Origin: a virus | Length of the DNA stretch: 39,867 bases | Reading direction: 5' to 3' (one strand) | IMG/VR virus record: IMGVR_UViG_3300002835_007162 | Location: 1-39,867 of that record | In this document: piece after piece, positions 10,014-37,103 of the stretch | How positions within the stretch are numbered: the first letter of the stretch is position 1 | Layout: each line of letters opens with the position of its first letter | Position numbers and translations under genes: made by a program | The notes under the pieces: generated by a model | What the model was told of the DNA's origin: nothing | The model's input: only the letters and a program-made list of their open reading frames with translations | The model's database searches: none

Positions 10014-10021
10014 CGCCAACG

Positions 10022-15304: not shown

Positions 15305-16806
15305 GTTGTGGATGTTTTTGGTACTACAAAATTATTAAAATAATCTAAAATTTCTTTATGGGAAACAAACTCATTTGTCTGGACATGCTCAGGTGAGGAT
15401 AATATGTGAGGAACATAATACTCTTTCATGATATCATAATACTTAGATAAGTCTACCAGTCTCAACCCATGCAACACCTGCATCCAACTTCTATCAGTGA
15501 ACATACTAAAATCTATTTCGGGAGATTTGCCTTGATGCAGTTGCTCTAAAATTATTGCTAATCGTTCTGGAGGCGGATAATTCTTTTGAAAGTCTCGCCA
15601 AAACTCAGTGTCCTGACGTTTGGTCATGTAATGGAGATACACGAATTCTAATATGTTGGTGTTTCGATCAAGGCATCGCTTGTTGAGGTCTTCTTCAAAC
15701 TTAATATCGGTTGTGTTGAATCCGTCGCAATTTAAAAAATCAATAACATTCAAAGCACTGACCCAGATGTTTGTGGCTTCTAACGGTTCTAAAAATCCCG
15801 CACTCAGCCCGACTGCCATAGAATTTCCTATCTTGGCCTTTTCATAGGTGCCTGCTTCGAACTTAAAAATTTTAGGCACGGTAAGTTTTTGACCAAAAAA
15901 TTCCTCTGCTTCTTCGAGAGCTTCTTGATCTGAACAGAATTTTGAATTGTAAACATATCCGCACCCGTATCTACCGTTTACAGGAATCCGCCATATCCAC
16001 CCGTTCTTCATACAGAATGCATCGGTTACCGGTGAAATGTTGTTGTCGTGTTCGATAAAAAACGGCATGGCTCTATCGAGTCCGCAGCTGTCTGCATAAC
16101 TGTTCCACTTAACTTTGTGATGTTTGCCGATTACAAGTCGAGCAAATCCCGAACAGTCAAACACAAAGTCACATGCTAATTCGATGTCGTCGTCTAGAAC
16201 TATGTGACTGATAATTCTATCACCTCGAAATTCTTTAACCTTCGCATCTATATGATGTATGCCCTTGTTGGCCGCAAACTTTGATAGATAAGTTGCCAGC
16301 AGTCTTGCATCAAAGTGCAAAGAAAACTGGCCGTGATGATTTAAAGGGAGTGCGTCGAGGGAGGAATCTTTATCGGACCAAGTAAATGGCACACGATTTT
16401 CCTTAGACATTTTTTCGTATACTGATAAATCTTGTGAATCACTGTTAGCTATTGACTGTTGCAATGACAGTAACTTGTCAATCAAGTTTTGATGCACAGG
16501 AATAGGATTTTGTACTTCGTCTTTGTATATGAAACTATGGAAATAACTTTTCCCGTCGTTATTCCAATTAGCAAAATTAATTCCTAATTTGAATGTGGCC
16601 TTGCATTCTTTAATTAACTCTGTGATCGGGATGTCTAACATATCGAGGATATTTGTTAAGAACGGTACAGATCCTTCTCCAGCACCCAAAATACCAATTT
16701 CGCCACTTTCTATAAGTGTTATATCGTAATGTGGATAGAATTTTTTAGCAAGCAATGCGGTGAACCATCCAGCTGTTCCACCACCGATTATATAAATTTT
16801 TTTCAT
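15301..16806 (-). CDS. Flavin-dependent (tryptophan-type) halogenase
   Basis: 501 residues, usual length. GGGTAGW at residues 8-14 binds FAD; the catalytic lysine of the PrnA family corresponds to Lys73 in CKATFKLGINF; the halogenase hallmark WxWxIP appears as GWIWRIP at 269-275; and the substrate-side glutamate fits Glu340 in SAGFLEPLEATNIW. Family members use reduced flavin, oxygen and halide to halogenate tryptophan or other aromatic compounds. They need a flavin reductase, not seen here. Cyanophages are known to carry such prnA-like genes, but their substrate is unknown. A TATAAATA lies 5 bases before the ATG. The next gene upstream is a radical SAM enzyme. Confidence 0.88.
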   Translation of the reverse strand: MKKIYIIGGGTAGWFTALLAKKFYPHYDITLIESGEIGILGAGEGSVPFLTNILDMLDIPITELIKECKATFKLGINFANWNNDGKSYFHSFIYKDEVQNPIPVHQNLIDKLLSLQQSIANSDSQDLSVYEKMSKENRVPFTWSDKDSSLDALPLNHHGQFSLHFDARLLATYLSKFAANKGIHHIDAKVKEFRGDRIISHIVLDDDIELACDFVFDCSGFARLVIGKHHKVKWNSYADSCGLDRAMPFFIEHDNNISPVTDAFCMKNGWIWRIPVNGRYGCGYVYNSKFCSDQEALEEAEEFFGQKLTVPKIFKFEAGTYEKAKIGNSMAVGLSAGFLEPLEATNIWVSALNVIDFLNCDGFNTTDIKFEEDLNKRCLDRNTNILEFVYLHYMTKRQDTEFWRDFQKNYPPPERLAIILEQLHQGKSPEIDFSMFTDRSWMQVLHGLRLVDLSKYYDIMKEYYVPHILSSPEHVQTNEFVSHKEILDYFNNFVVPKTSTT

Positions 16807-16811: not shown

Positions 16812-16819
16812 TATTTATA
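16812..16819 (-). promoter_or_regulatory. T4-type late box TATAAATA
   Basis: Exact match on the minus strand, 5 bases before the halogenase ATG, in the only gap between this gene and the upstream radical SAM gene. It would start transcription at or inside the start codon, so either the transcript is leaderless or the box is fortuitous in AT-rich DNA. Confidence 0.4.
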
Positions 16820-17897
16820 TGCTGTATTTTTGCATGAGTTTTTTATAACCATCTGCGTCCGCAGCTTTAGGGGCACACAATCCACACCAGCAACTGGACT
16901 TAGCACAGACAATATCGGGTAATGTATTAGTCTCTAGTTTTTGTTTGAGATCTTTTAATAATTCTTCACTGTTTTTTAGATATCCTAACACTCCAACTTC
17001 GCTGTCCAAATTCATTCTACAGTCTTTATTGGTATAAATTTCTCCGGTTGTTTGTCTTATGTACAGAAAGAATCGATTGACCGAGCAGGTCCAACCTTTA
17101 AATCTATTATTTTTAATGTATGTGGTACTGCTATCTACATCAGTACAAAGAATTTCACCACCACAACATGCTCGTCCTTTAGACGACAAATCGATACCGT
17201 TTTTAAAAAAAGATATCACCTTGGTAGTCATTGACACATGTTTAGTCCCGGTTAAGAATTCAGATTGTTCGGGAGTGTAATTGAATTTAAAATTGGTCCA
17301 TCCGTGATCTAATTGGCGTGTGATATATTTCACATCGTTGATTTTACACCATTCAATTTGATCTAAACACACCTGCCATTTTTTAGGATGCATGAGAACA
17401 GACACTTGAAAATTTTTATTGTTGTCTTTTAAATATTTTACATTTTGCCTAAACATATTCTGCTGCTTTACAAGACTTTCGGAATGAAAACTCATAGTAA
17501 AATAATCAACTACATCTGCAATTTTTTTCCAACGATCCGGACTGGTTATGCCATTAGTGATCAACCCAATATTGAGATTCCAATTATCATATAAAGATTT
17601 TTTATTTTTTATATATTGAAGTATTTCTAAAATATGAGGATGGAAAATACTTTCTCCGCCTTGTATATTCAACGTAGCAAATCTAATGTGTTCTGGTCGT
17701 GAACACATATATAAATTTAAATATTCTACGATAAAATCAACAGTACGAAGACTGTCTTCAAGGCTAGGATGATCCTGACTGTTATCATGCCCGTCGCCAC
17801 AATAGCTGCAATCTAAATTGCATTTTAATGTGGATTCCCATGCCACCTGAAATGAATGATGGGAATTAGTTTGATCGATGAAATTGAAGTCAGGCAC
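16815..17897 (-). CDS. Radical SAM enzyme with Cys-rich C-terminal domain (SPASM-like), family 1
   Basis: 360 residues from a GTG at 17895-17897; no ATG precedes the cluster motif. The 4Fe-4S/SAM motif is Cys26-x3-Cys30-x2-Cys33 (CNLDCSYC); NIQGGESIFHP is the GGE-type SAM motif. The C-terminal domain has RACCGGEILC, a GWTCSVNRFFL block, a later Cys, and CWCGLCAPK, enough cysteines for auxiliary clusters. The same block order occurs in 25581-26663, so the two are paralogues. Substrate unknown. It lies between thyX and the halogenase gene, on the same strand. Confidence 0.85.
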   Translation of the reverse strand: MPDFNFIDQTNSHHSFQVAWESTLKCNLDCSYCGDGHDNSQDHPSLEDSLRTVDFIVEYLNLYMCSRPEHIRFATLNIQGGESIFHPHILEILQYIKNKKSLYDNWNLNIGLITNGITSPDRWKKIADVVDYFTMSFHSESLVKQQNMFRQNVKYLKDNNKNFQVSVLMHPKKWQVCLDQIEWCKINDVKYITRQLDHGWTNFKFNYTPEQSEFLTGTKHVSMTTKVISFFKNGIDLSSKGRACCGGEILCTDVDSSTTYIKNNRFKGWTCSVNRFFLYIRQTTGEIYTNKDCRMNLDSEVGVLGYLKNSEELLKDLKQKLETNTLPDIVCAKSSCWCGLCAPKAADADGYKKLMQKYSI

Positions 17898-17911: not shown

Positions 17912-18595
17912 TTATTTGGTAACTGTTAAATCGTTAGCCATTGGAAATATTTCCGCAATTACCTTTGCACAGGCCACAGCCACTTCTTGATGCTCTTTTT
18001 GTGTGCCGTTAGCACTTCGTAGCTCAATGAAATGAATCCATGATCGCAAGGTGCCATTCATGTATAAACGACTTTCTGTTAAGCCTTCTGGTAACACAGC
18101 ACGAGCTTGTTCTTTTGCTATGCCTTTAGTAACAGCCCACTCGTATGTTTCTTTTGTGAGTCTAATAATTTCGAGTTGTCTATTTCTCCACTCATCTTGT
18201 AATAATGCATGACCGAGGGTGCCGTCCAGCGGAACACTGTTCTGTCTGTTCTTTGGGTCTTGCAACCGTGCTTCTCTACATACGAACGACAGGTCTTTAG
18301 TAGGGTCAGCATATCGCTGACTGAATTCTTGGAAACTAAAACTTCTGTGTCGCAAGATTTGTCGTGCAATATCTCTTGTGGTTGTGATTTCGATACAGGC
18401 GGAGACCATTTCGAGTGGGCTCCAGTGTTGGTGTTTGACCAAGTATCTGATAAGTTTTTCTGATGTGTCTGTGTTGAGTTGATTGGAGGGATTGCTGACA
18501 CGGGCGCAATACGCAATGAGTTCTTGCGCATCTGTGAGGCCAAGCTCTGCAAATTCCTGTGTGGGCTGACTATAGCTGAGTAATCGAACATTCAT
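17912..18595 (-). CDS. thyX: FAD-dependent thymidylate synthase ThyX
   Basis: 227 residues. The ThyX signature RHRxxSxxxxSxR is present at residues 82-94 (RHRSFSFQEFSQR), with the C-terminal SRLYMNGTLRSWIHFIELR block. The enzyme makes dTMP from dUMP with methylene-tetrahydrofolate and FADH2, supplying phage DNA synthesis. An AAAGGGA site precedes the ATG. It follows a virion-type gene by 2 bases and is common in marine phages. Confidence 0.95.
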   Translation of the reverse strand: MNVRLLSYSQPTQEFAELGLTDAQELIAYCARVSNPSNQLNTDTSEKLIRYLVKHQHWSPLEMVSACIEITTTRDIARQILRHRSFSFQEFSQRYADPTKDLSFVCREARLQDPKNRQNSVPLDGTLGHALLQDEWRNRQLEIIRLTKETYEWAVTKGIAKEQARAVLPEGLTESRLYMNGTLRSWIHFIELRSANGTQKEHQEVAVACAKVIAEIFPMANDLTVTK

Positions 18596-19347: not shown

Positions 19348-20118
19348 TCATCCAGTTTTGATATGATTAATAAACCACCCAATTAAATCCCATTCTTTCG
19401 GATTTTTTTGAGTCGTATATTCACCAGCAGCCCCGTGATGATTGTTATGCCAACCTTCTCCTAAACTGACCAGGTTGGCTATCCAGCTGTTAGTGCTGAA
19501 ATCTTTTGTGTCATAGTTGCGATAACCATGACTGTGACCTAAAACATTTACCATACTTGTTGTGTTAAGTGCAATTGTAGCAGGTAAACAATATAAAAAC
19601 AACCCCATTATTGGATTTATCAAAAATAAAATAATTACTGGTATCAGTAACAATTTAAAATAGTTATCGTGAATCCATCTTTGAAATTGATTTCTTGAAA
19701 GATCTTTTACATAGCTGATTGGGATTTTAACTTTCGGAGATCCGTATCCTGTCCACACAGCCACGATATTTCTAAAAGATAATTTCCCATTTCGATAAGA
19801 GCTATGGGGATCGTTTTCTTGATCGGAAAATCCGTGATGGGATCGATGTATAGCTACCCATGCAATCGGAGAACCTACTGTAGCGTATACACTTGTGATA
19901 GATAGAACTTTTTCTATAAACGGAGTTGTTGTAAATGAGCGATGAGTGAGTAATCTATGCAGTCCAGCACTAATGCCAATGGGACACAGGATCACAAACA
20001 TCAGATACGAAAGTATCAGCAGATAGGCCGGACCAGTAGTCAACGCATAATATATCGCAAATACAGACAACAGTAAGTTGATGAATTGTATAGTTCTAAT
20101 TTTTTGATTGGTAGTCAT
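19348..20118 (-). CDS. Membrane acyl-CoA/acyl-lipid delta-9 fatty acid desaturase
   Basis: 256 residues from ATG 20116-20118, which overlaps the upstream stop as ATGA and has GGAGG 5 bases before it. The three His boxes are complete: HRLLTH (54-59), HRSHH (91-95) and HNNHH (224-228), with further His in LGHSHGY. Hydrophobic spans flank them (residues 10-50, 70-90, 155-190). It introduces a double bond into fatty acyl chains with two irons, oxygen and an electron donor from the host. Fatty acid desaturases are occasional auxiliary genes in marine phages; this could adjust host membrane fluidity or make a lipid modification. Its neighbour upstream may be a GNAT-like acyltransferase. Confidence 0.9.
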   Translation of the reverse strand: MTTNQKIRTIQFINLLLSVFAIYYALTTGPAYLLILSYLMFVILCPIGISAGLHRLLTHRSFTTTPFIEKVLSITSVYATVGSPIAWVAIHRSHHGFSDQENDPHSSYRNGKLSFRNIVAVWTGYGSPKVKIPISYVKDLSRNQFQRWIHDNYFKLLLIPVIILFLINPIMGLFLYCLPATIALNTTSMVNVLGHSHGYRNYDTKDFSTNSWIANLVSLGEGWHNNHHGAAGEYTTQKNPKEWDLIGWFINHIKTG

Positions 20119-20729
20119 GGACCCTCCGATAATTCTTGCCATTGATCGTGAGATAATATTGTGGGATTCCATTCATCAAACAATCCTATCCGTTGTTCAT
20201 AATACACAAAATTTTGCCAACATTGCTGCACCATCCACGGGCAGGTTTGTATATATCCGTCTGGTTCAGTCCACATGTTATTGCTGGATTCACGCATCAT
20301 CTTTTTCCAAAGATTCCACCAACCCTTACCACCACGATTGCGATTCTGCATGGTAATAATATACAAGTCGTAATGGTTTATATCCATCAACGGCTTTACA
20401 ATTCTTTCGTGATGCAATTTATAAGACTCGATCATGTTGTGTCTACCGCATCGAAATTCAGGAAACAAATAAAGTCGATTGGCCATCCGGGCAACATTGT
20501 TTGGAAATTTTCCGTTGTTGTACACACCCGCCATTATAATAGGCTTGTCAGTGACCTTTTGGTAAACAACTACGTATCCACTGTGGTCTTTGATAACGAG
20601 ATTTTCTTTCGTATAGTTTTTTCGTAACCAGTTATCTTCTTCCAAGCAGATAGATCTTACTCGTTCGAATTCGTCACAGGTATCATGATAGATAACATGG
20701 TATGTGTTTTCATATGAAAAAACGCTCAA
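20115..20729 (-). CDS. GNAT-like N-acyltransferase candidate
   Basis: 204 residues from a TTG at 20727-20729, with AAGGA 7 bases upstream; no ATG lies nearby. A core of GYVVVYQKVTDKPIIMAGVY followed by NRLYLFPEFR resembles the strand-turn-strand of GNAT acyltransferases (use of an acyl-CoA or acyl-ACP donor); the acetyl-CoA loop is not clear. A Trp/Tyr-rich C-terminus contains GGKGWWNLWKKMM. It is coupled to the desaturase by an ATGA overlap. Identification is tentative. Confidence 0.45.
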   Translation of the reverse strand: MSVFSYENTYHVIYHDTCDEFERVRSICLEEDNWLRKNYTKENLVIKDHSGYVVVYQKVTDKPIIMAGVYNNGKFPNNVARMANRLYLFPEFRCGRHNMIESYKLHHERIVKPLMDINHYDLYIITMQNRNRGGKGWWNLWKKMMRESSNNMWTEPDGYIQTCPWMVQQCWQNFVYYEQRIGLFDEWNPTILSHDQWQELSEGP

Positions 20730-20917: not shown

Positions 20918-21946
20918 ATGACGCACGACTTCACCAAGATACCTTTTGATCGCATAGTAAGATTTGGACAACGTACCATGCTGGACAGACCGCTGTTCAG
21001 CATCAGTTGGATTTTGGGACGTTTCTGTAATTATAACTGTTCATACTGCTGGCCCTATGCTCGCAGTGATAGAATTGATTATCAACCATTCGAAGTATAT
21101 ACCAATGCCATAGATGAAATTAAACAGCAGGCACGGGCTAATGGATTTACTGAATTTCATTGGAGTTTCTCGGGTGGCGAGCCTACTGCTTATAAACAGC
21201 TGCCTCAACTCATGCGGTATATGCAAGATGATCTAGAAAGCACTTATCAAAGTATACACATGACCACTAATCTTTCACCTGGATCTAAGTGGTGGAATAC
21301 ATGGTGTGCTAACACAGACATGGTGCAACGTCGAAGTATCACAGCCAGCTTTCATGCAGAGTTTGCCAAGGAGCAGGAGTTTGGAGACAAGTGTCTGCAA
21401 TTGATCTACGAGCGGGTGCATGTCACAATAAATCAAGTCATGGTGCCCGATCAATTTTGGTCTCTGTATGAACGCTGCCAACGATTTCATGCTCGCGGAA
21501 TTAATGTAACACTGAAACCTCAGAGTGATCCCACAGCCAGTGGCATTGTAGATGGATATACCGACGAAATGATACATCTCATGCAGACAGGATTTCCACA
21601 GCAGTCGATAGACGGAGAACTTTATCAAATCGCATTATACGATGACACCGGCACAGAATATCTGTTTGATCAAGCAGAACGATTCAATGCATTTGGGTTT
21701 AATAAATTTCAAGAATGGAGTTGCAATAGTGGGTATCAAAGTGTTATAATAAGAAGTAACGAAGTGAAACGATCTTATAGCTGTCACGATCAACCCTTGG
21801 GAACATTGACTCAGGGATTTAAATTGTTTAGCAGTCCACAAAATTGCGAGACTGCCAATTGTGTGAGTTCAGCAGATTCTAAGATTCCAAAATGGAAAAA
21901 TATACATTTCGCAGAGAACCATGAAAAGAATAAATCTATCCAATGA
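20918..21946 (+). CDS. Radical SAM enzyme, operon A first gene
   Basis: 342 residues. The cluster motif is Cys37-x3-Cys41-x2-Cys44 (CNYNCSYC), preceded by WILGRF as in the family-1 paralogues; SGGEPTAYKQL is the SAM-binding GGEP motif. The C-terminal part carries Cys in EWSCNSG, SYSCHDQP and NCETANC, so extra clusters are possible. It differs from the family-1 paralogues (no RACCGG/CSVN/CGLC order) and is a related but distinct member. First of seven overlapping genes; no clear Shine-Dalgarno precedes the ATG. Substrate unknown. Confidence 0.83.
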   Translation: MTHDFTKIPFDRIVRFGQRTMLDRPLFSISWILGRFCNYNCSYCWPYARSDRIDYQPFEVYTNAIDEIKQQARANGFTEFHWSFSGGEPTAYKQLPQLMRYMQDDLESTYQSIHMTTNLSPGSKWWNTWCANTDMVQRRSITASFHAEFAKEQEFGDKCLQLIYERVHVTINQVMVPDQFWSLYERCQRFHARGINVTLKPQSDPTASGIVDGYTDEMIHLMQTGFPQQSIDGELYQIALYDDTGTEYLFDQAERFNAFGFNKFQEWSCNSGYQSVIIRSNEVKRSYSCHDQPLGTLTQGFKLFSSPQNCETANCVSSADSKIPKWKNIHFAENHEKNKSIQ

Positions 21947-22547
21947 TACTTTTGTAGACATACCAGATGGGCCCATCGGCATCAGCTGTTCTGGTGGAGT
22001 GGATAGTTCTCTGTTGCTGTATATTCTTATGGCAAATTGCACAGACATTATACATATTTTTACTCTTTCAAACGATCGCAAGGGAAGGGCTAATGCAGTT
22101 ATAGTTCCTAAAGTCATTGAACGGTGTATTCAACTCACTGGTAATTTAAATGTTATACAGCATTCGTATTATGCAGCAGATCAAATAGAAAATACCTTGT
22201 TTGATGTTCCACATGAGTATCTAAAAAATAAAACTATCAGTTGTATCTTTTTTGCGATCACCGCTAATCCTCCCGCTGATGTTGTTTTCGCAGCACAGGG
22301 TTCAGAACAGAGTAATAGAGATCCGTTGACAATTAAAAAAGAAATCGAATACGATGGGTTTCTGTATCAACCGTTTGTAAACAAAGATAAAAAAACAATT
22401 GCAGATATTTACAAACAATTAAATTTAATGGAAACTCTGTTTCCTGTAACACGTAGCTGCGAACAAATAGGGAAACTAGAGTACTACGACCATTGTGGCA
22501 AATGTTGGTGGTGTGAAGAAAGACAATGGGGGTTTGGTCGTGTCTGA
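21921..22547 (+). CDS. QueC-like PP-loop ATPase, copy 1
   Basis: 208 residues. The ATP pyrophosphatase loop SGGVDSS is at 24-30; four C-terminal cysteines (Cys180, 192, 195, 198, in CEQIGK and HCGKCWWCEERQW) match the zinc site of QueC. QueC makes preQ0 from carboxy-deazaguanine; related PP-loop enzymes adenylate carboxylates, amides or thiol donors. A paralogue with the same layout lies at 32541. Sequence between motifs differs from QueC as I know it, so preQ0 synthesis should not be assumed. It overlaps the preceding gene by 26 bases and the next by 8. Confidence 0.72.
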   Translation: MKRINLSNDTFVDIPDGPIGISCSGGVDSSLLLYILMANCTDIIHIFTLSNDRKGRANAVIVPKVIERCIQLTGNLNVIQHSYYAADQIENTLFDVPHEYLKNKTISCIFFAITANPPADVVFAAQGSEQSNRDPLTIKKEIEYDGFLYQPFVNKDKKTIADIYKQLNLMETLFPVTRSCEQIGKLEYYDHCGKCWWCEERQWGFGRV

Positions 22548-23925
22548 TAAAGTTAAAAAATTTATTGAAATAGTAGAAAAGAAAACAGGTACCTCTACCT
22601 TTTGTGTCTTGCCATGGATACATGTGGCCACACGTCCCAATGGTGATGCAAGATTGTGCTGCGGGTCTAATGCCAGCCAGGCCACTAACGGTGTTATGGA
22701 TGCAGGGTTAGTGAAAAAAGAAGATGGTATTCCAGCAAACTTTGGTAAAGAGACTCTACAGAGTGCATGGAATAACAAGTATATGCGAACAGTTAGAACT
22801 ACCATGTTGGATGGTAACATACCGTCAAGCTGTTCTAAGTGTTTCGAAGAAGAAGCACAAGGCATTGTTAGCAAACGTGTGTGGGAAACATACTACTGGC
22901 ATGAAGAAGGCACTGACCTTGCACAGTTAGTCAGAGACACAGACACCAACGGTGTGGTTCCGCCGATGATACGATACCTCGATCTACGACTTGGCCATAA
23001 CTGCAACTTAAAATGTGTGATGTGTACTCCACACGACAGCAGCAGATGGACACAAGACTACGACAAACTGATCAATAAAACTCGCAGTCCTATTATTCTA
23101 CAGCAGATCAATTGGGACAAAGACACATTCGATAACCAATGGTATGAAAAGCCAGAGCTTTGGGAAGAGATTTTTCAACAGATACCTAACATTCAACAAT
23201 TATATTTTGCAGGCGGTGAGCCGTTGATGATCAAAGAGCATAGAAAGTTCTTAGAAGAGATCATTCGCAGAGGCCATGCCAGTAATATCACAGTTCGATA
23301 CAATTCAAACGGAGTATTGGTTGATGATGAAATCATCGAAATATGGTCTAAGTTCCGAGAAGTTAGATTTGCTTTCAGTATAGATGCTGTGGGCGATCGT
23401 AATCATTACATTCGATATCCTGTGAGTTGGGCCGAGACTGAAGCAGCGTTGGAAAAACTTGACAACACTCCAGACAACATCAAGGTAGGTATTGCTTGTG
23501 CTGTGCAAATTTTCAATATCAAACATATTATAGATTTTGCCAAATGGAAAATACAGAAAAACTTTAAGAAAATAAACTTCTTTGAAGTATTTGACATCCA
23601 AGCTGGTGGGGGTCTACTAAACATGCATATGCTTTATATTCCTACCTTTCTTTCAGCACGTATTCTTTCCAAAGAAGATAAGATACAGTTGAGAAAAGAT
23701 TTTGAAGAATTTAAACAATGGCTGTGGGACAACTATAGACAGGATGACGATTTCTGGAAACACAACCCCAATGGGTGGAATCGCTGGGAAAGTATTTTAA
23801 AATTTGTAGAAGCAGAAGATCACACACACCTGTTGCCAGATTTCAAGGAATATGTTGATAGTCTGGACAGTATAAGGCAAACAAATGCCAGCGAAGTATT
23901 CCCAGAACTGGCTCACTTATTATGA
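22540..23925 (+). CDS. Twitch-domain radical SAM protein, copy 1
   Basis: 461 residues from a GTG at 22540-22542, chosen because it overlaps the PP-loop stop by 8 bases and a G-rich site precedes it; the longer ATG frame at 22495 would overlap 53 bases. An N-terminal twitch-like Cys domain (Cys22, 40, 41, 98, 101 with FCVLPWIHVATRPNGDARLC) precedes the rSAM core, Cys155-x3-Cys159-x2-Cys162 (CNLKCVMC), and the AGGEPL motif. This N-twitch arrangement matches the NCBI family of twitch domain-containing radical SAM proteins. A paralogue is at 26656. Substrate unknown; the domain order is unusual because the auxiliary cluster domain comes first. Confidence 0.85.
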   Translation: MSDKVKKFIEIVEKKTGTSTFCVLPWIHVATRPNGDARLCCGSNASQATNGVMDAGLVKKEDGIPANFGKETLQSAWNNKYMRTVRTTMLDGNIPSSCSKCFEEEAQGIVSKRVWETYYWHEEGTDLAQLVRDTDTNGVVPPMIRYLDLRLGHNCNLKCVMCTPHDSSRWTQDYDKLINKTRSPIILQQINWDKDTFDNQWYEKPELWEEIFQQIPNIQQLYFAGGEPLMIKEHRKFLEEIIRRGHASNITVRYNSNGVLVDDEIIEIWSKFREVRFAFSIDAVGDRNHYIRYPVSWAETEAALEKLDNTPDNIKVGIACAVQIFNIKHIIDFAKWKIQKNFKKINFFEVFDIQAGGGLLNMHMLYIPTFLSARILSKEDKIQLRKDFEEFKQWLWDNYRQDDDFWKHNPNGWNRWESILKFVEAEDHTHLLPDFKEYVDSLDSIRQTNASEVFPELAHLL

Positions 23926-24515
23926 TGATTGATACAGAACACTTACATTACTGGATGCAGGCCATTAGACAAAGTGATGATCCTATGAGGACCATGGATG
24001 CCTTTTGGTCGGGACAACTTAACAGCAAAGAGTGGTTAATTACAAATCTACGTAAGAATGTCAACAAGTTTGTTAGTATAGACATCCACGGCGGGTGGGT
24101 TGGAGTATTAGCCAGTATGTTATTCCAAAGCGATATCTATGTTAAAAATATTCGTAGTATTGATATCGACCCTACATGCGAACCTATTGCTACAATGATG
24201 AACAAGAAAGAAGAGATAGCAGGTAAGTTTCGTGCAGTGACCGCAGATATGTGTGCTATTCGCAGTGATGCCGATGTTGTTATTAATACCAGCTGCGAAC
24301 ATATAACACAGGACCAATACGATCTTTGGTTAAGTGGAATGCCGTATAACACATTGTTGGTGCTGCAAAGCAACAATTATAATATTCCAGAACATGTAAG
24401 AATCGCAAACGATCTCGACGAGTTTAAAACACAGTCTAAAATTAATGTGGTATGGGCAGGCGAATTAGAATTACCTTTATACAAAAGATTTATGATTATA
24501 GGACGTAATGTTTAA
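23922..24515 (+). CDS. Class I SAM-dependent methyltransferase-like protein
   Basis: 197 residues from ATG 23922, overlapping the upstream TGA; a second ATG follows at once. The Rossmann order is VSIDIHGGWVGVLASMLF (nucleotide loop), SIDIDP (acidic end of strand 2) and VVINTSCEHI (motif IV-like). The glycine loop is altered (DIHGGWVG rather than GxGxG), so SAM use is likely but not certain. It sits between two rSAM genes and may methylate an intermediate of the same pathway; I recall similar small methyltransferase-like proteins in cyanophages. Confidence 0.65.
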   Translation: MMIDTEHLHYWMQAIRQSDDPMRTMDAFWSGQLNSKEWLITNLRKNVNKFVSIDIHGGWVGVLASMLFQSDIYVKNIRSIDIDPTCEPIATMMNKKEEIAGKFRAVTADMCAIRSDADVVINTSCEHITQDQYDLWLSGMPYNTLLVLQSNNYNIPEHVRIANDLDEFKTQSKINVVWAGELELPLYKRFMIIGRNV

Positions 24516-25584
24516 GTTTAACGAATTAAAAACAGTTCATTTAGAGATCAGCACACGCTGTCAAGCAGCCTGTCCTATGTGTCCTCGCAACTATAAAGGC
24601 GGATTAGAAAATCCCAACTTGAAGATAGCCGATTGGACCTATGATGAATTCGTGCAGATTTTTGACAAAGAAACATTGGCACAATTAGAAGGAGTTTACT
24701 TCTGTGGTAACTTCGGAGATCCTATGATGAATAACGATCTCATTCCAATGTGCCAGTATCTCAAGGATCATGCTCCTCATATTGATTTAAGAATTCACAC
24801 CAACGGCGGCGCAAGAAGTGCGATTTGGTGGAATGATTTATATTCCGCGATGCCGGAAAAACATGTTGTGGTATTTGCTCTTGACGGATTAGAAGATACA
24901 CATCACTTGTATCGAGTAGGTACCATGTATGAACGTGTGGTACACAACGCCAAATTATTCATTGATGCCGGTGGCATAGCAGAATGGGTGTTTATTAAAT
25001 TCAAACACAACGAGCATCAAGTAGAGGAAGCAGAATCAAGATCAAAACGATTAGGGTTTCAGCGATTCACGGTTAAGAATACCATTAGATTTATCGGAGA
25101 ATTAAAATTTGCTGTACTGGATAAAGAAGGAGACACACTCTATTATTTAGAGCCACCAACAGCTAATCAAGTAACACTTATAGATGCCGAAACTATCAAG
25201 AACTTTAAAAAATGGTATTCGGAAACTTCGGTTGATTGTTATGCATTGTCTAAAAAAGAAATCTATATAGACGCACACAAGAATGTATTTCCCTGCTGCT
25301 TTCTTGCGTCAGCACCCTATAATCACAGTGGCTCTCAAAGTATTGTAGCTGATATTAAAAAACAGATCTTAGATCAATATTATGAACTTGTAAACGATCT
25401 AGGTGGCATTGAAAGTTTAAATGCAGTAGATCGAGGCATCAGGGGTATTATCAACGACGATAGATGGCAACAGGTATGGGAGCCTTATTGGACTGATAAA
25501 AAATTAATAACCTGTGCTAGAGTCTGCGGAGTAAATGATCTTTCCAAACCCAACGATCAGTTCGTTACGAGAGTTACTAATTGA
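24508..25584 (+). CDS. Radical SAM enzyme, MoaA/SPASM-like, operon A
   Basis: 358 residues; AGGA lies 7 bases before the ATG, which overlaps the methyltransferase stop by 8 bases. The motif is Cys18-x3-Cys22-x2-Cys25 (CQAACPMC), followed by the SAM-binding region FCGNFGDPMM and HTNGGARS. The C-terminal part has DCYALSKKEIYIDAHKNVFP followed by CCF, and late CARVCG, resembling a SPASM domain with auxiliary cluster ligands. SPASM proteins often modify peptides or other macromolecules. No obvious precursor peptide gene is seen near. Confidence 0.82.
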   Translation: MFKFNELKTVHLEISTRCQAACPMCPRNYKGGLENPNLKIADWTYDEFVQIFDKETLAQLEGVYFCGNFGDPMMNNDLIPMCQYLKDHAPHIDLRIHTNGGARSAIWWNDLYSAMPEKHVVVFALDGLEDTHHLYRVGTMYERVVHNAKLFIDAGGIAEWVFIKFKHNEHQVEEAESRSKRLGFQRFTVKNTIRFIGELKFAVLDKEGDTLYYLEPPTANQVTLIDAETIKNFKKWYSETSVDCYALSKKEIYIDAHKNVFPCCFLASAPYNHSGSQSIVADIKKQILDQYYELVNDLGGIESLNAVDRGIRGIINDDRWQQVWEPYWTDKKLITCARVCGVNDLSKPNDQFVTRVTN

Positions 25585-26663
25585 ACAAGATCTTTGCTAT
25601 TACTCCCGTTAACCAAGATCCTTTTATTGTAACTTGGGATTTAGGTAGAAGGTGCAATTACGATTGCAGTTATTGTCCTGCTCATAGACACGACAATTTT
25701 AGTTCACACGCCAGTTTAGAACAATTAAAAGCTACAACAACTTTTTTGTTTGATTACATTCTGTTGGTGTCGCAGCATAGAAAAAACAAAGATTTTCATG
25801 TGAGTTTCACTGGCGGTGAACCCACAGTTAATCCCGTATTCATTGATTTTGCAAAATACATTCGCAAAGAGTATGATGACACATACAAGAATACGTTTAA
25901 TCTCAAGCTCAGTTTAACTACTAACGGAGCCATGAGCGAAAAAACAGCACAGGCTGTGATTGAAAATTTTGACTATGTAACAGTTAGCTATCATGCAGAA
26001 GCCAAAGACTCAGTTAAGGCCAGTGTTATTGATCGAATTAATTTTTTCAACAGCAGCGAAATTGCGGTCAAGGTAAATGTAATGTTTCATGCAGACTACT
26101 TCGATGAATGTAAGACAGTCTGTGAAAGATTATCAACATGGAATATAAAGTTTATCCCTCGACTGATAGGCGACGACCCCGATAGTAAATCCAGTCAAGC
26201 ACACTTATACACAGACGATCATAAACAATGGTTAAAACAAACCTGGAATATCGATATCACTCCTACTTCTAGACCATGTTGTGGCGGCAGAGAGTTTGGA
26301 GTTTGTAGCACAGCCGGTCAAGAAACAGCGAAAGCAGTTGTAGATAGACAATTCAAGGACTGGCACTGTTCGGTAAACTGGTATTTTTTACACATAGAAC
26401 AACAAACAGGATTAGTCTATCATCATCAGACCTGTCAAGCCACACTTGAAAGTAAGCGAGGTAGTATAGGAACATTGATGGAATCAGATACTATTGTTGA
26501 AACTTTACGCAATCACTTGATCAATAAAACAATGCCTGTGATAACATGTCCTAACAATCTCTGCGGCTGTGGCTTATGCACTCCAAAAAGTTCTGATAGG
26601 GAAAAACTAATGTCGTCTATGGACGATGTGTTAATCAGCACAGAGATTTTTCACAATGTCTGA
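25581..26663 (+). CDS. Radical SAM enzyme with Cys-rich C-terminal domain (SPASM-like), family 1
   Basis: 360 residues from a TTG at 25581 that overlaps the preceding stop (TTGA); no ATG lies before the cluster motif, so a coupled TTG start is required. Motif Cys25-x3-Cys29-x2-Cys32 (CNYDCSYC); GGEPTVNPVF is the SAM motif. The C-terminal blocks PCCGGREFGVC, DWHCSVNWYFL and CGCGLCTPKSSD match the enzyme at 16815 in order and spacing, so the two are paralogues 8 kb apart on opposite strands. Substrate unknown. Confidence 0.84.
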   Translation: MNKIFAITPVNQDPFIVTWDLGRRCNYDCSYCPAHRHDNFSSHASLEQLKATTTFLFDYILLVSQHRKNKDFHVSFTGGEPTVNPVFIDFAKYIRKEYDDTYKNTFNLKLSLTTNGAMSEKTAQAVIENFDYVTVSYHAEAKDSVKASVIDRINFFNSSEIAVKVNVMFHADYFDECKTVCERLSTWNIKFIPRLIGDDPDSKSSQAHLYTDDHKQWLKQTWNIDITPTSRPCCGGREFGVCSTAGQETAKAVVDRQFKDWHCSVNWYFLHIEQQTGLVYHHQTCQATLESKRGSIGTLMESDTIVETLRNHLINKTMPVITCPNNLCGCGLCTPKSSDREKLMSSMDDVLISTEIFHNV

Positions 26664-27729
26664 TACGCTGTGTGCATATCCATGGGCCGGTTCAGCAGTA
26701 CGCCCGGATGGTACTATTTTGCCCTGTTGCAAATTTATACACAACAAAGAATTTGGCAGTATCACAGACCAAGATCCCAGAAACTCCAGTGCATGGACTG
26801 AGTTACGCCAGCAGATGTTAGTAGGAAATAAAATTGATAATTGTAAAACTTGTTACAGGGATGAAGCCAGTGGAGTTGAAAGTCTTAGACAACAGAGTTT
26901 AAAATTTTATCAACCAACTGATATTGAGCCCCAGCCTCTCAAACAATTAGAAGTCAGCTTTGATAACTTATGCAATCTTGCCTGTGTGATGTGTTCTGAA
27001 GAATTCAGTACCAAATGGCAGACAGAAAAATTCACACATAGAAATCTCGTAGCGAAAGGTATCACAGCTCATGGATTTGATTATACTTCTTGGGACTTAA
27101 CCGAGGTCACACATCTTAAGATAATAGGTGGTGAACCAATGATGAGTCAAGAAAAATTTATCAAACTTCTTAGACAGTTTGATCTAACACAGCTCGAAGT
27201 TGCAGTGACCACAAACGGTACAATTTTACCAAATACAGATCTTAAGACTCTGTTAGAACGCTGTAAACGTGTATCTTATAAAGTCAGTCTTGACGGTGTA
27301 GGAGATGTTAATGATTGGATTAGATGGCCGAGTAAATTTTCTATCATAGAAAATAACGTCAACACCTTAGAACAATGGTGGGCAGATACTGCAATTAATT
27401 TGCAATTCCACACTGTGATTGGAATATACAATATCAATCATTTACAAAGTTTAGTGGATTTTGTATTGAATAAACCGCAGTGGAGTATTACATGGAACTG
27501 GGTAACTACTCCTGCATGGCAATCGATATCTGTATTAATTGACAAAGAAAATCTGAGAATTCAACTGCAAGAATTAGGATCGAAATATGATCTTGATCCT
27601 AACCCTTTCTATATCAGCATTGACAGACTGTATGACATTCCCCGATCAGATTGGGCTACTGCTGTAAAAGAAACCAATCAACTAATTTCAGAAAGAAATA
27701 TAGTTCCTAAAAATTTTAGTGCAGATTAA
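26656..27729 (+). CDS. Twitch-domain radical SAM protein, copy 2
   Basis: 357 residues. N-terminal twitch cysteines: Cys6, Cys24, Cys25, Cys63 and Cys66 (CAYPWAG, LPCCKF, CKTC). The rSAM core is Cys106-x3-Cys110-x2-Cys113 (CNLACVMC), with IGGEPMMSQEKF. It is a shorter paralogue of 22540-23925. It closes operon A and converges with the tail-fibre gene, overlapping it by 14 bases. The 8-base overlap with the gene before supports coupled translation. Confidence 0.85.
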   Translation: MSDTLCAYPWAGSAVRPDGTILPCCKFIHNKEFGSITDQDPRNSSAWTELRQQMLVGNKIDNCKTCYRDEASGVESLRQQSLKFYQPTDIEPQPLKQLEVSFDNLCNLACVMCSEEFSTKWQTEKFTHRNLVAKGITAHGFDYTSWDLTEVTHLKIIGGEPMMSQEKFIKLLRQFDLTQLEVAVTTNGTILPNTDLKTLLERCKRVSYKVSLDGVGDVNDWIRWPSKFSIIENNVNTLEQWWADTAINLQFHTVIGIYNINHLQSLVDFVLNKPQWSITWNWVTTPAWQSISVLIDKENLRIQLQELGSKYDLDPNPFYISIDRLYDIPRSDWATAVKETNQLISERNIVPKNFSAD

Positions 27730-28987
27730 CCCAAGCAGCACTGTCGTATACCTGTACTTTATTTGTGGCTGCAGGAGAAGTTCCTGCTGTCATAAAAATC
27801 ATCATTCCGGTAGTTGGAGTTGGTACTAAAGCAGTGCGAGCAGTGTCATCAGCTACTACAGGAAGCTTTGGAGGTAATTGAAAATCTGTCGAAGTTGGTC
27901 TAAATTTTATAGTATTCGAAGTGTTTACTAATAAATCCATTCTTGCAGGCGGAGGACTTCCGGGGGTTACTACACCGTCCACTTCAACATTTATAGAAAC
28001 CATTCGTTGAAATTGTGTGCCGTCCCATGCAGTGTATGTAATTGCACCGGTCAAATCACCGTTTTGAACTATTGTTTGAGAAACAATCGAACCTCTTGAT
28101 TTCTGAATAAGTATCGATGGTGCAAAAGTAGCTGAATTAATAAAAGCAGCTACGTTTACAGTAGGAGTTAGTGGATTGGTACCATCATGACTGCTAACAA
28201 AGCTGGTACCTGCATCAGTTAGAAAGAGAGCATTACCAGTTATTGCAGATGCACCAGACAGCGCGATGCCGGTAAGAGCAGCTGTTTTTGCGGTGTTGTC
28301 GATAATAACTGAAGTGTCTGTCGCTAAAACATTACCTGTAACGTTAGCAAATACCGGCGCTACAATACGTCCATCAACTCCATCTACCAACAGGGTAGAA
28401 GAATCTGAAAATACGCTACCAGTGACATCTCCATCTAATCGTCCTACAAAGGATTTATCAATAGCATTAACAAGTAAGCTGGAATCGTCTGCAAAGATTG
28501 ATCCAGTTACGTCGCCGTCGACATTACCGGTTAAGTTTCCAGTGACGTTTCCAGTAACATTACCAGTAATATTGCCAGTAACGTTGCCAGTTAAGTTTCC
28601 AAAAAATCCATTAGAGGCATATATTTTTTCGTCAATGGTATCTATCATGACTGATGAATCATCAGCAAAAATAGAACCCTGTAATGCTGACGCATTAATT
28701 ACACCGTTGTAGTTCGATAAATCCACAGATGCAGACAAACTTGCAGTTGCATCGTTGTATGTAAAGGTTATTCCTGAATGTACTCCATTGCTGAACAGAG
28801 TAGCCGACGCATCCTGAGCATCTTCGTTGGTGTATCCGGTAATTTGTATCCCGCCAAGAGTACTACCGTTGCCGATATATAATCTCTCAGCTCCTGCTGT
28901 CGTAACAAACAGCAGCTCACCTTGTGCAAGCGGCTGGGTCATTGCTAATCTTTCTGCATCAGTGCCTCTGCGAATCTGTAAGGGCAT
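27716..28987 (-). CDS. Tail-fibre protein with tropism-determinant-type head and GNxT repeats
   Basis: 423 residues. The N-terminus (MPLQIRRGTDAERLAM, then QGELLFVTTAGAERLYIGNG) is the widespread phage fibre head seen in many tail fibres. Residues 104-215 hold repeated modules of the type GSIFADDSS(x)LVDxID, and residues 130-161 eight four-residue GN(V/I/L)T units, typical of triple-stranded fibre shafts. The C-terminal region (residues 330-423) is more varied and could bind receptor. A perfect late box at 29021-29028 and a CAGGAG site before the ATG mark it as a late virion gene, inserted between two rSAM operons. Confidence 0.85.
   Translation of the reverse strand: MPLQIRRGTDAERLAMTQPLAQGELLFVTTAGAERLYIGNGSTLGGIQITGYTNEDAQDASATLFSNGVHSGITFTYNDATASLSASVDLSNYNGVINASALQGSIFADDSSVMIDTIDEKIYASNGFFGNLTGNVTGNITGNVTGNVTGNLTGNVDGDVTGSIFADDSSLLVNAIDKSFVGRLDGDVTGSVFSDSSTLLVDGVDGRIVAPVFANVTGNVLATDTSVIIDNTAKTAALTGIALSGASAITGNALFLTDAGTSFVSSHDGTNPLTPTVNVAAFINSATFAPSILIQKSRGSIVSQTIVQNGDLTGAITYTAWDGTQFQRMVSINVEVDGVVTPGSPPPARMDLLVNTSNTIKFRPTSTDFQLPPKLPVVADDTARTALVPTPTTGMMIFMTAGTSPAATNKVQVYDSAAWVNLH
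28505..28600 (-). repeat. Eight 12-bp tandem units encoding GN(V/I/L)T
   Basis: 96 bases, minus-strand coding; units differ mostly at third positions and in the hydrophobic residue. The last two units are GNVD and GDVT. Such tandem units can change copy number by recombination or slippage and set shaft length. Confidence 0.8.
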
Positions 28988-29088: not shown

Positions 29089-30546
29089 TTAGTTGGCATC
29101 GGCGAATTTCTGCAATAACGCCTTGTATTCCTGTATCATTTCGGATTTTCTTGAATTATATTTGTTCCAGTCAACATCCTGCCATTTTAATTTTTGTATA
29201 GTATCTGCATCGTCTAGCTGATAACTCAGCATCAAAAAGAGATACCACGAGTTAACCGTGCCAACTCCTATAGAAGCATCGCTGAATCGTTGTGCAGTTT
29301 TCTCGGCGAATTTGCGATCCATAATAGGACTTTTCCAGTACCCCACTTCGTCGCTTAGTTCGTAGCCGTATTTTGCATAGTTCTTGTCTATATCACTCAA
29401 ATAAAAATTGCTAGGGGTAATAGCCAGTGGCATCCATATGGAGTTAATTCCAGAATTCATAAACCAATTAAAGCTCTCTTCGAGCTGATCTGGAGTTTCA
29501 TATGGCAATCCTACTATTAGTGAACAAATAACTGAAATCTCTTGGTTCCACAGATTATAATATAATCTTGGAAGAAATTCTTTTACTTTACTCTCAGCTA
29601 AGCCTTTGCCTATAAACTTAGCTGTGCGGGGATTCATACTCTCAATCCCAAATGCTGCAGATTTTAGCCCCATTTCTTTAAGTAGCGTGATTTGTTCTGG
29701 ATGAGCATACAGCAGATCTAGTCTTAGATATGCTACAAATTGTATACGAAACGGTAAGGTTGTAAAAACTTCATGTAACAATTCTAGTTTATAGGTGGAA
29801 TCATTGAAGGTATCGTCACTGAACATGTAGTTAGTGGTACCAAACTGTTCGTAATTACTGATCAATTCTTGTCTAATTAACTCTGGATCTCTAATGTAAT
29901 CGAACTTCTTTTTACCGTTCAATGGGTAAGAGCAAAATTTACAATTAAAAATACATCCTCTGCTGATTTCAATAGGCAGCGTTTCCTTTGGTAAAATGCA
30001 GTCTCTGGGATCCCAAATGTGTCTCATAGTTGATACTTCGAGTAGCTGTTGATCTCCGTTGATGATTTCTTTATTATGTAATTTTGGATATATCTTTTTT
30101 GGTCCGTATCTTAACCCGTTTAGGTAATCTAACACAACTACTTCACCGTACCCTGTTACTATCACATCGAATATATCGTCGTCTTTATACCAATTAATAT
30201 TTGCACCACCACCTACGATTTTAATTTTTTTATTTTTTGTTTTATAAAAATTTATAACCTTGCGTAAGTTGTCAGAAATAGTTCTTAATTTTTTATATGT
30301 AGAACTGATCATCTCGTCAGATTGTGATTTCAAAAAGGTTGTACTAACGCACAGCGCCAATGTATTGTCACTGGTGAATTTGTCTAATAACATGATTAAA
30401 TTATCGAAATCAAACTCGTCAACGAAATCAATAATCTGAGTTGTATACCCGTGTTGTCTTAAATGGCTTCCTATGCGATAGGCGCCAATCGCTCGCTGAA
30501 ATTCATTGCCGGATATACCGGTGAGGATTATAACATCAACTGACAT
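29089..30546 (-). CDS. B12-binding-domain radical SAM enzyme, copy 1
   Basis: 485 residues. N-terminal Rossmann-like domain (residues 1-150): MSVDVIILTGISGNEFQRAI, IIDFVDEF, IVGGGANINWY and VTGYGEVVVLDYL, as in cobalamin-binding rSAM enzymes, but without the DxHxxG lower ligand, which many class B members also lack. The rSAM core is Cys198-x3-Cys202-x2-Cys205 (RGCIFNCKFCSYP), with SDDTFNDSTYKLE and a LRLDLLYAHPEQ strand. Class B members methylate or rearrange unreactive carbon. It overlaps copy 2 by 11 bases and is very similar to it. Last gene of operon B. Confidence 0.83.
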   Translation of the reverse strand: MSVDVIILTGISGNEFQRAIGAYRIGSHLRQHGYTTQIIDFVDEFDFDNLIMLLDKFTSDNTLALCVSTTFLKSQSDEMISSTYKKLRTISDNLRKVINFYKTKNKKIKIVGGGANINWYKDDDIFDVIVTGYGEVVVLDYLNGLRYGPKKIYPKLHNKEIINGDQQLLEVSTMRHIWDPRDCILPKETLPIEISRGCIFNCKFCSYPLNGKKKFDYIRDPELIRQELISNYEQFGTTNYMFSDDTFNDSTYKLELLHEVFTTLPFRIQFVAYLRLDLLYAHPEQITLLKEMGLKSAAFGIESMNPRTAKFIGKGLAESKVKEFLPRLYYNLWNQEISVICSLIVGLPYETPDQLEESFNWFMNSGINSIWMPLAITPSNFYLSDIDKNYAKYGYELSDEVGYWKSPIMDRKFAEKTAQRFSDASIGVGTVNSWYLFLMLSYQLDDADTIQKLKWQDVDWNKYNSRKSEMIQEYKALLQKFADAN

Positions 30547-31978
30547 TTTTTAATTTGTTTTTATACAATTGCACTTTTGCAATTGCTTTATTTTTTATCT
30601 CCTCTAACGGAAGATTTTTAAGTGAGGTATTTCGAATATAGTTTCTATCATATCCTAAATTAATTAGAGAATTAGTCACACTCATCTCTAATTCTTGATT
30701 AGGAATAGCTTGTGAATTATATCGATACGCCGCAGCATCAGCTTCGTCCTTAGTCATGATATCATGTTCCCAATTAGACTCAGTGACATTTCTGTAACCA
30801 TATTTTTCGTAATTGGTGTCTATATCGCTTTTCCACCATTTGTTAGGATTGATCCAGAGTGGAGACCAATAATTGTTTATTCCGTGATCCATTAACCATT
30901 GAAACGATTTATCTGTGCTTGATATGGGCTCGGTAGGCAGACCCACGATAAACGTACACTGGAAAGAAACTTCGTCTTTCCAGTATTCGTTTTTAAGTTT
31001 TAGAATTAGGTCTTTTACCTTGGTAGGATGCAGAGATTTATTCACAAATTTAGCTGTTGTCAAATCAAAGGTTTCGATGCCCATAAAGGCATAGGCCAAG
31101 CCCATTTCTTTAAGTAAGAGGATTTGCTCTGGATGAGCATGCATAAGGTCTAATCTTAGATATGTAGAAAAATTAATTTTAAATGGGAGATCTCTAACAA
31201 CATTATATAATCCTTCGAGTTTGTATGTTGTGTCGTTGAAGGTATCGTCTCCAAACATGTAGTTAGTAGTACCGAACCGTTCATAATTACTGATCAATTC
31301 TTCTTTGATCAACTCTGGATCTCTAAGATAATCTAAGTGTTTTTTACCGTTGTACGGATAATTACAAAATTTACATTTAAAAATACACCCTCTACTAATT
31401 TCAATAGGTAACACTTCTCCTTGAAATATGTGATCATTATCAGCCCATTCATATTTCAATGTTCGAACATCAAACGGATATAATTCTCCATCTATAATAT
31501 CAGTGCCATTCTTTGTTGGCCATAACCGTTTTCTATTTTGACGTAATTCTTTAACATATTCAAGGAATGCATTTTCACTGTAATTGTGGAATACAGCTGA
31601 AAAGAGACCATCGAACTGATATTTCCTAGAATTGCCTCCTCCTAAGATATATTCGATTGTTGGATGTTTTTCTTTAATATTTTTTATAGTGTCGACGATG
31701 TTATCTGTAAGAAACGAGAGCTGAGTTCTACCGGTGTTGACACCTTCAATCATTTGACCTTCATAGAAAGTAGAACTCACCCCTATCGCTAATGTATTCT
31801 CACCTATAAATTGTTCAGTTATTTCAACTAATTCTTCACAGGTGAAATAGTCAGTGAAATCTATAATCTGTACAGAAATACCATGACTTCTTAGATGACC
31901 TGCTAATTGATATGCACCGATTGCTCGCTGGCAAGGAAAGTCTGCAACATTGGTGTAGATGATGATATCGTAGGTCAT
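30536..31978 (-). CDS. B12-binding-domain radical SAM enzyme, copy 2
   Basis: 480 residues, close paralogue of 29089-30546: same cluster position Cys198-x3-Cys202-x2-Cys205 (RGCIFKCKFCNYP), same GGGNSRKYQFDGLF and GDDTFNDTTYKLE blocks, same RAIGAYQLAGHLR start. The conserved N-terminal SAM/B12-type domain lacks DxHxxG. The gene overlaps the hydroxylase-like gene by 4 bases. Duplication with divergence suggests two similar steps on related positions or substrates. Confidence 0.83.
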   Translation of the reverse strand: MTYDIIIYTNVADFPCQRAIGAYQLAGHLRSHGISVQIIDFTDYFTCEELVEITEQFIGENTLAIGVSSTFYEGQMIEGVNTGRTQLSFLTDNIVDTIKNIKEKHPTIEYILGGGNSRKYQFDGLFSAVFHNYSENAFLEYVKELRQNRKRLWPTKNGTDIIDGELYPFDVRTLKYEWADNDHIFQGEVLPIEISRGCIFKCKFCNYPYNGKKHLDYLRDPELIKEELISNYERFGTTNYMFGDDTFNDTTYKLEGLYNVVRDLPFKINFSTYLRLDLMHAHPEQILLLKEMGLAYAFMGIETFDLTTAKFVNKSLHPTKVKDLILKLKNEYWKDEVSFQCTFIVGLPTEPISSTDKSFQWLMDHGINNYWSPLWINPNKWWKSDIDTNYEKYGYRNVTESNWEHDIMTKDEADAAAYRYNSQAIPNQELEMSVTNSLINLGYDRNYIRNTSLKNLPLEEIKNKAIAKVQLYKNKLKNVS

Positions 31979-32544
31979 TCTGCTTCACAAATAACTAAAT
32001 GAATTCTCGGTTCCCAACCACCATTATAAACAAAGTGGTCTTTGGTTGTATCTACTTTATAAAAGTAACCGTCTGCAGGAATATGGTAACATTTTGCAGA
32101 AACGTCACTGTCCACGTGTTCGCCAAAGTAGGCATACTTATTAGTGTCTATAGCAAGATGATATCTATAATTAAAATCACGGTGAACGCTTAATCCAGTC
32201 TTCGGCATCAGTCGCATGAATCTAATTCTGCCAAACGAGGTGCCCTCGTGTGCTGCAAGTTCTTCTATGATCTGTTTGGTATAAGATGGAGTATCCACAT
32301 TCCATTCCGTAAAATCACTTTCTTTGCCTCTGAACTGTTTTGTCTCTGCATCGTAAAGACTGCCTGAAGAATCCAGAATTATATCCGAAGCATCGGGCCT
32401 ATGTGTGATCCCTAATTGATTCCCAGGTAATTTTTTCTCAAAATTAATTTCGGGCCATGGATGCACAGATAACAGCTCTCTGAGATCTGTTTGTATCTGT
32501 GAGAGATTAATATGGTAGGAAGTTTTAGTTATAAAATTATTCAT
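31975..32544 (-). CDS. Aspartyl/asparaginyl beta-hydroxylase-like oxygenase
   Basis: 189 residues. IRFMRLMPKTGLSVHRDFNY places the iron ligands His121 and Asp123; distal His170 lies in TKDHFVYNGG, and Arg180 in EPRIHLVI is the 2-oxoglutarate anchor. This resembles the Asp_Arg_Hydrox family (PF05118). Unlike the TIGR02466-type oxygenases nearby (33221 and 38119), it has the HxD triad. It would hydroxylate an amino-acid side chain or a small molecule using oxygen. It is coupled to both neighbours by 4-base overlaps. Confidence 0.75.
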   Translation of the reverse strand: MNNFITKTSYHINLSQIQTDLRELLSVHPWPEINFEKKLPGNQLGITHRPDASDIILDSSGSLYDAETKQFRGKESDFTEWNVDTPSYTKQIIEELAAHEGTSFGRIRFMRLMPKTGLSVHRDFNYRYHLAIDTNKYAYFGEHVDSDVSAKCYHIPADGYFYKVDTTKDHFVYNGGWEPRIHLVICEAE

Positions 32545-37097: not shown

Positions 37098-37103
37098 AGC
37101 TCA

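Follow-up and report, generated by a model that had tools for sequence, protein, structure and literature searches.

The 39,867-base virus record IMGVR_UViG_3300002835_007162 from IMG/VR, itself a genome fragment, is the stretch analysed here (the window). At positions 20918-27729, its plus strand carries seven overlapping open reading frames (ORFs), here called operon A (A1 to A7), most of which code for radical S-adenosylmethionine (rSAM) proteins. A1 (20918-21946) is an rSAM protein with further C-terminal cysteines (PF04055, 39.8 bits). It is followed by A2 (21921-22547), a PP-loop ATPase with a QueC-like zinc motif (C-terminal match to PF06508), and A3 (22495-23925, with a likely GTG start at 22540), an rSAM protein with an N-terminal twitch domain (NF033640, 387.6 bits). 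A4 (23922-24515) belongs to no described family, and its AlphaFold2 model points to a class I SAM-dependent methyltransferase fold. A5 (24508-25584) is an rSAM protein with invariant cysteines for a C-terminal auxiliary cluster (PF04055, 26.5 bits). A6 (25581-26663), which has a TTG start, is an rSAM protein of SPASM type (PF04055, 46.9 bits), and A7 (26656-27729) is a second rSAM protein with an N-terminal twitch domain (NF033640, 224.3 bits). A preliminary description of the locus had reported the seven ORFs, and all are present at these positions and on this strand. Its count of five rSAM genes is borne out by a CxxxCxxC motif in each of the five proteins and by their matches to PF04055 or NF033640. 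The reported overlaps of 26, 8, 4, 8, 4 and 8 nucleotides hold provided that A3 starts at GTG 22540; the longest A3 frame starts at GTG 22495 and overlaps A2 by 53 nucleotides.

The same description proposed that the genes form one operon and serve one pathway. This is supported by the near-universal overlaps, by a gene order that recurs in near relatives, and by the lack of clear internal promoter or terminator signals. A scan of the operon gave 35 promoter-like signals (25.9 in shuffled sequences, standard deviation 5.6) and 7 terminator-like signals (5.2 in shuffled sequences, standard deviation 2.4), neither being clearly above the shuffles. Among 176 non-redundant loci, 85% of the 653 adjacent pairs of cluster genes overlap, compared to 55% of the 943 other pairs in the same loci. 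The ORF calls rest on length, and the families come from BLAST followed by a simple MCL clustering. Because the order recurs in other contigs, the arrangement is not due to chance. The additional proposal of a fixed stoichiometry sits badly with the relatives, among which A7, the PP-loop gene and other rSAM genes are present in some and missing in others. We favour the view that operon A would be the chief transcription unit of an exchangeable island for biosynthesis that the phage encodes. It is only part of the picture, because the window has 11 rSAM domains.

The CxxxCxxC cluster motif is kept in all 11 rSAM proteins of the window. The curated cut-off of PF04055 (29.5 bits) is passed by A1, A3 and A6, while A5 (E = 8e-6) and A7 (22.6 bits, E = 1e-4) score below it. 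A3 and A7 pass the cut-off of the NCBIfam model NF033640 (170 bits) and thus belong to this subfamily, which names a domain architecture but no function and has several copies per island in the class of islands described below. In 21 relatives of A1, C37/C41/C44, C269, C289, C310 and C315 are invariant, as is an SSADSKxPK tail. The extra C-terminal cysteines suggest a twitch-like auxiliary cluster. A3 has a SPASM/twitch domain (residues 37-116) and an rSAM domain (residues 166-323), with cysteines that are invariant in the alignment. The invariant cysteines of A5 (C18/C22/C25, C244, C263, C336 and C340) are also found in gp083 of Campylobacter phage CP220 (see below). The extra cysteines of A6 are invariant among its relatives, and its AlphaFold2 model has the rSAM fold; the nearest structure is BlsE (Z 17.1), followed by SkfB and anSME (about 15.6) and MoaA (15.2). 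Apart from near relatives, A7 is present in some marine islands only.

The PP-loop protein A2 has the SGGxDS motif (86 of 90 family members) and the QueC-type zinc motif (88 of 90) in common with the QueC/Cap9/QatC family (PF06508), where the zinc motif is likewise C-terminal. It differs from that family by its short form, by its location next to rSAM genes (59 of 90 cases) and by the absence of the QueC substrate motifs and of the first motif in its Cap9 form. According to the signatures given in PMC13329287, the three QueC substrate motifs are YxQxHxxE, VPxRN and YPDC, and each of these is found in none of the 90 members. The same holds for Y/FxQ(x)5E, one of the Cap9 motifs from that paper, while the other, YxDC, occurs in one member, so that the family lacks the signature of a Cap9-type protein deazaguanylation ligase. 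Because the substrate motifs are missing, A2 is considered related to QueC by its fold and its ATP chemistry, yet the name QueC should not be applied to it. Cap9 is a QueC-fold ligase able to modify the N-terminus of a protein (PMC13279940). By analogy with QueC and Cap9, A2 most likely would activate a carboxylate and transfer it to an amine.

A4 has no family match in Pfam, PHROG or NCBIfam. Its AlphaFold2 model (pLDDT 95.4) resembles many class I SAM-dependent methyltransferases, with Z 16-17.6 over about 170 residues. It has this fold, and methyl transfer is its putative activity. Nicotianamine synthase was considered as a more specific assignment. It ranks first in Foldseek, yet it is missing from the VIA-align top 50, and many ordinary methyltransferases have tied Z scores; it is only a possible assignment. 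Because the top Foldseek match is nicotianamine synthase, an aminocarboxypropyl transfer by A4 is possible.

The preliminary description took the gene order to be informative. This applies only to near relatives. The order A1-PP-A3-A4-A5-A6-A7 is intact in three other loci (L009, L010 and L011), and four shorter contigs (L012, L013, L015 and L016) likewise keep it in the parts that they contain. Relatives with about 55-75% identity have the order A1-(PP)-A3-(r9)-A4-A5-A6. Islands at a greater distance have the genes in changed order and in extra copies, with rSAM and PP-loop genes inserted or lost. Homologues that are split without order, which the description had named as counterevidence, thus do occur in part among the distant relatives, where only A1 and A4, often followed by A5, stay together. 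Of the 59 non-redundant loci that were fetched by A4 alone, 50 have A1 upstream of A4 at a distance of at most three genes. When evolutionary distances are compared, A1 and A4 correlate with r = 0.86 (83 loci), while the values for other pairs are lower (A1-A6, 0.63; A1-A3, 0.46; A4-A5, 0.28; A4-A6, 0.10). For a flanking family of phage genes, the corresponding values are low (0.17 and 0.27). Judged from these sequence comparisons, A1 and A4 are the stable core of the island. How readily the surroundings are exchanged is illustrated by L010, which lacks two of the window's B12-type rSAM genes despite an identity of about 85-95% between the operon A proteins.

By homology, operon A, carried by an uncultured phage of T4 type, belongs to a large and widespread class of islands in aquatic phages. 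Stretches of IMG/VR viral contigs with relatives of A6 number at least 585 (single-protein scan), and those with relatives of A4 at least 591 (alignment scan). In 18 related records, 3 to 22 rSAM domains were counted per record. Of 17 relatives, 7 encode a T4-type gp23, among them each of the five records that reach 280 kb; the class is spread in T4-type phages. The window fragment itself has no gp23. In a tblastn search of GenBank phages, A1, A4 and A6 had no match, and A3, A5 and A7 had distant matches. A profile scan of a collection of bacterial and archaeal genomes returned four full-length relatives of A6. One of these (L118; PAAV01000055.1, 161 kb) is labelled as a Chloroflexi metagenome-assembled genome (MAG) and contains a multi-rSAM island. 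Because a T4 gp23 is encoded on the same contig, this is a phage contig that was binned into a bacterial MAG. As far as seen, with one of the four genome-collection relatives traced to a phage contig, the class would be restricted to phages. The richest record seen (L083, record G010) is a virus record of 117 kb with 22 rSAM domains, spread between about 49 and 105 kb.

Interchangeable multi-rSAM phage modules are already known. A module of five rSAM genes that is exchanged between Campylobacter phages CP220 and CPt10 was reported by Timms et al. in 2010 (PMC2853527). Operon A is a variant of such a module. It has about five contiguous rSAM genes with overlaps, is T4-related, is swapped between relatives and codes for homologous enzymes: gp080, gp083 and gp084 of CP220 are relatives of A5, and gp081 is similar to A6 and to its paralogue D (see below). 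The proteins are, however, only about 25% identical to those of operon A. CP220 has an amidinotransferase and putative glycosyltransferases, while no A1, A4 or PP-loop gene was recognised in the compared stretch. Among the proteins of the window, no amidinotransferase was recognised; a relative of the CP220 enzyme (gp086) is found in another island (L112). The CP220 module has a QueD-like gene in its neighbourhood and is separated by about 10 kb from a gene annotated as tail fibre. In pelagimyophages, rSAM cassettes are located in the host-recognition cluster (PMC7029224), and these phages and the cultured Pelagibacter phage Mosig EXVC030M (MT647606) have rSAM genes in or beside tail-fibre regions. 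The Mosig island, flanked on one side by tail fibre genes, contains relatives of A4 (Mosig_00090) and A5 (Mosig_00084), and many of its accessory families are common with marine islands. No relative of A1, A3 or A6 was recognised in the Mosig stretch; a carbamoyltransferase and an aminotransferase annotated as sugar-type are encoded there. For the T4-like environmental genome TARA_ERS488813_N000010, 12 rSAM genes and an A-type Fe-S carrier (ATC) were described in 2017, and ATC/IscU proteins were reported alongside many rSAM proteins in T4-like marine genomes (PMC5332604). This resembles the island in being a T4-type phage with many rSAM and Fe-S assembly genes; the likeness is one of description only, as the portion of that report consulted gives a gene count and no operon, core pair or pathway. 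A brief search of the open-access literature found multi-rSAM phage clusters only in the papers cited here and no description of an A1-A4 core or of rSAM-linked QueC-fold proteins.

Our favoured reading is that the island codes for an exchangeable pathway by which an unusual decoration is built and attached, most likely to the virion (its fibres) or to the host envelope. We assign it a probability of roughly 0.35. A decoration of the surface or the virion is favoured over one on DNA or over a leader-guided ribosomally synthesized and post-translationally modified peptide (RiPP). This role is suggested because tail-fibre-like genes are found near operon A (27716-28987 and 8904-10019), because pelagimyophage cassettes lie at a host-recognition position, because the Mosig island borders on tail fibre genes, because the CP220 module has putative glycosyltransferases and a tail fibre gene at some distance, because of a carbamoyltransferase (NodU/CmcH type, in one relative island) and because the modules are exchanged quickly. 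In such a pathway, A1 and A4 would build or prime a common scaffold, which A3, A5, A6, A7 and the neighbouring B12-type rSAM proteins may modify by radical chemistry at specific positions. The role of A2, as an ATPase of QueC fold whose substrate pocket has changed, would be to adenylate a carboxylate made on the way and to couple it to an amine, a ligation or amide chemistry modelled on QueC and on Cap9 acting with 7-carboxy-7-deazaguanine (CDG). A halogenase, 2-oxoglutarate-dependent (2OG) oxygenases and methyltransferases could tailor the product, and the phage's own IscU and A-type carrier would help to load Fe-S clusters. The finished moiety would then decorate virion fibres or the host envelope, which is the weakest step. 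The rapid swapping of modifying enzymes may represent an arms-race diversification, as in O-antigen clusters. It is tempting to go further, although this must be rated as doubtful, and to see here a phage-restricted combinatorial system: with a fixed A1-A4 core and swappable modules of paralogous rSAM proteins and QueC-fold ligases, each lineage would make its own decoration or metabolite of an undescribed class, and the ligase would join an acid other than a deazaguanine to an amine.

Several points weigh against a surface or virion decoration. There is no glycosyltransferase inside operon A. Family 7, which is often encoded upstream of A4, was tried as a glycosyltransferase and rejected: a DxD-like stretch is visible by eye, but there is no Pfam match, and hhalign gave a probability below 1% against two candidate glycosyltransferase families with few sequences. 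Among 17 relatives, only 2 have Peptidase_S74 fibre domains, which lie far from the islands and are uninformative on the proximity to fibres. Peptide maturases, besides small-molecule enzymes, are among the folds nearest to A6. As to the core, island genes served as bait in collecting the loci, which biases co-occurrence rates upward. Shared phage ancestry raises all distance correlations, that of A1 with A4 included, and the choice among paralogues lowers those of the multi-copy families A3, A5 and A6.

The combination of ATP activation, methyl transfer and several auxiliary-cluster rSAM proteins on which the preliminary description built its proposal fits a biosynthetic pathway, but its list of targets (peptide, nucleobase or sugar) is too open, and the evidence lowers the versions with 7-deazaguanine in DNA and with a leader-guided RiPP. 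SPASM/twitch rSAM enzymes are typically peptide maturases, and the mix of B12-dependent rSAM proteins, hydroxylases and methyltransferases recalls proteusins. Together with the matches of the A6 model to SkfB and anSME (Z about 15.6) and with Cap9 as a precedent for a QueC-fold ligase acting on a protein N-terminus (PMC13279940), this speaks for a RiPP-like modification, the rSAM proteins, 2OG oxygenases and halogenase acting on a peptide or on a structural protein of the phage. We consider this unlikely. Operon A is devoid of gaps and leaves no room for a precursor-peptide gene. In 136 islands, only 81 of 1315 internal gaps exceed 75 nucleotides, and no widespread family of small ORFs was found beyond fragments of large genes. 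A PqqD-type recognition domain occurs in none of 17 relatives, although some RiPP systems have none. It is possible that the target is encoded in trans.

A modified nucleobase that protects phage DNA from restriction would agree with the QueC fold of A2, with the QueD-like (6829-7353) and ThyX (17912-18595) genes of the window and with the QueD-like gene near the CP220 module. It is nevertheless improbable: all three QueC substrate motifs are missing from the entire A2 family, and the TGT/DpdA family (PF01702) has no match in 18 related records of up to 364 kb, some of which may be fragments, while a divergent DpdA may escape this model. Both of these results concern bases of the 7-deazaguanine type. 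Finally, the product may be a diffusible metabolite, or a modified membrane (amino)lipid, that reprograms or protects the infected host; the authors of PMC2853527 proposed a metabolic benefit for infected hosts. A desaturase-like gene (19348-20172), an Asp_Arg_Hydrox oxygenase and the halogenase are encoded nearby, and desaturase, hydroxylase, dioxygenase and aminotransferase families are common to Mosig and the marine rSAM islands. Given that none of the operon A genes was recognised as coding for a transporter or as lipid-specific and that no acyl-carrier, non-ribosomal peptide synthetase or polyketide synthase genes were seen, we would not expect this explanation to prevail.

Enzymes of the rSAM type are oxygen-sensitive and costly, and yet one group of phages keeps up to 22 of their domains per record and swaps them quickly. 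If a single pathway is behind this, phages offer a large and still untapped supply of new radical chemistry, and the product is possibly a modification of phage or host surfaces of a new kind. Concrete targets to begin with are the stable A1-A4 pair and the ligase that has the QueC fold but lacks the QueC pocket. The puzzle noted in 2010 (PMC2853527) is now testable, because the cultured phage Mosig (on Pelagibacter) and phage CP220 (on Campylobacter) offer laboratory systems.

Two neighbouring operons with B12-type rSAM proteins lie downstream of operon A. The first, on the minus strand, codes for two rSAM proteins that are B12-dependent in type (29089-30546 and 30536-31978; PF04055, 62.4 and 65.1 bits). 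A B12-binding domain was detected only in the first of these, as a weak match. They are followed, also on the minus strand, by an Asp_Arg_Hydrox 2OG oxygenase, a second PP-loop/QueC-like protein and a 2OG-Fe(II) oxygenase (31975-33850; PF05118, PF06508 and PF13759) and by an rSAM protein with an HMPTM zinc ribbon, whose N-terminus is pterin-methyltransferase-like (33844-35016; PF23545, 56.2 bits; PF04055, 39.0 bits). The latter may be pterin-related; the QueD-like gene is found in the same window. A third operon on the plus strand (35065-39867) codes for a B12-type rSAM protein, an SDR-like protein, two paralogous proteins without assigned function, a 2OG oxygenase and a further B12-type rSAM protein that is cut by the contig end. 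Its gene order is mostly common to L010, L042, L045 and L047.

Upstream of operon A, the minus strand carries a flavin-dependent halogenase of tryptophan type (15301-16806; PF04820, 329.7 bits), whose relatives in the PDB include the viral VirX1 (6qgm) and RebH. The adjoining gene D (16815-17897, minus strand) codes for an rSAM paralogue of A6 (PF04055, 37.5 bits; assigned to the A6 sequence cluster). The halogenase and this rSAM protein may contribute to one product. Near the start of the window, on the minus strand, an A-type Fe-S carrier (1901-2221) and an IscU-like scaffold (2205-2597) were named by sequence reading, and both possibly supply clusters to the rSAM proteins. IscU-type genes occur in 5 of 17 relatives. 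Together with a gene for an Fe/Mn superoxide-dismutase-like protein, the two genes are clustered at 1901-3287, possibly as a set for Fe-S supply and for the protection of oxygen-sensitive rSAM proteins. In the gaps of some islands (L113 at about 14881, L166 at about 14707, L169 at about 15155 and L218 at about 3956), a small ORF of about 40-65 residues with the motif IQQQNVVLYKKL...FF recurs, which is possibly a partner or a precursor peptide and is absent from the window. A KdsA-like (5832-6677) and a KdsB-like protein (14265-14924), both of the CMP-Kdo (CMP-3-deoxy-D-manno-octulosonate) pathway, and a glycosyltransferase (5075-5857; phrog_1962) are also encoded in the window and may provide a supply of sugar nucleotides.

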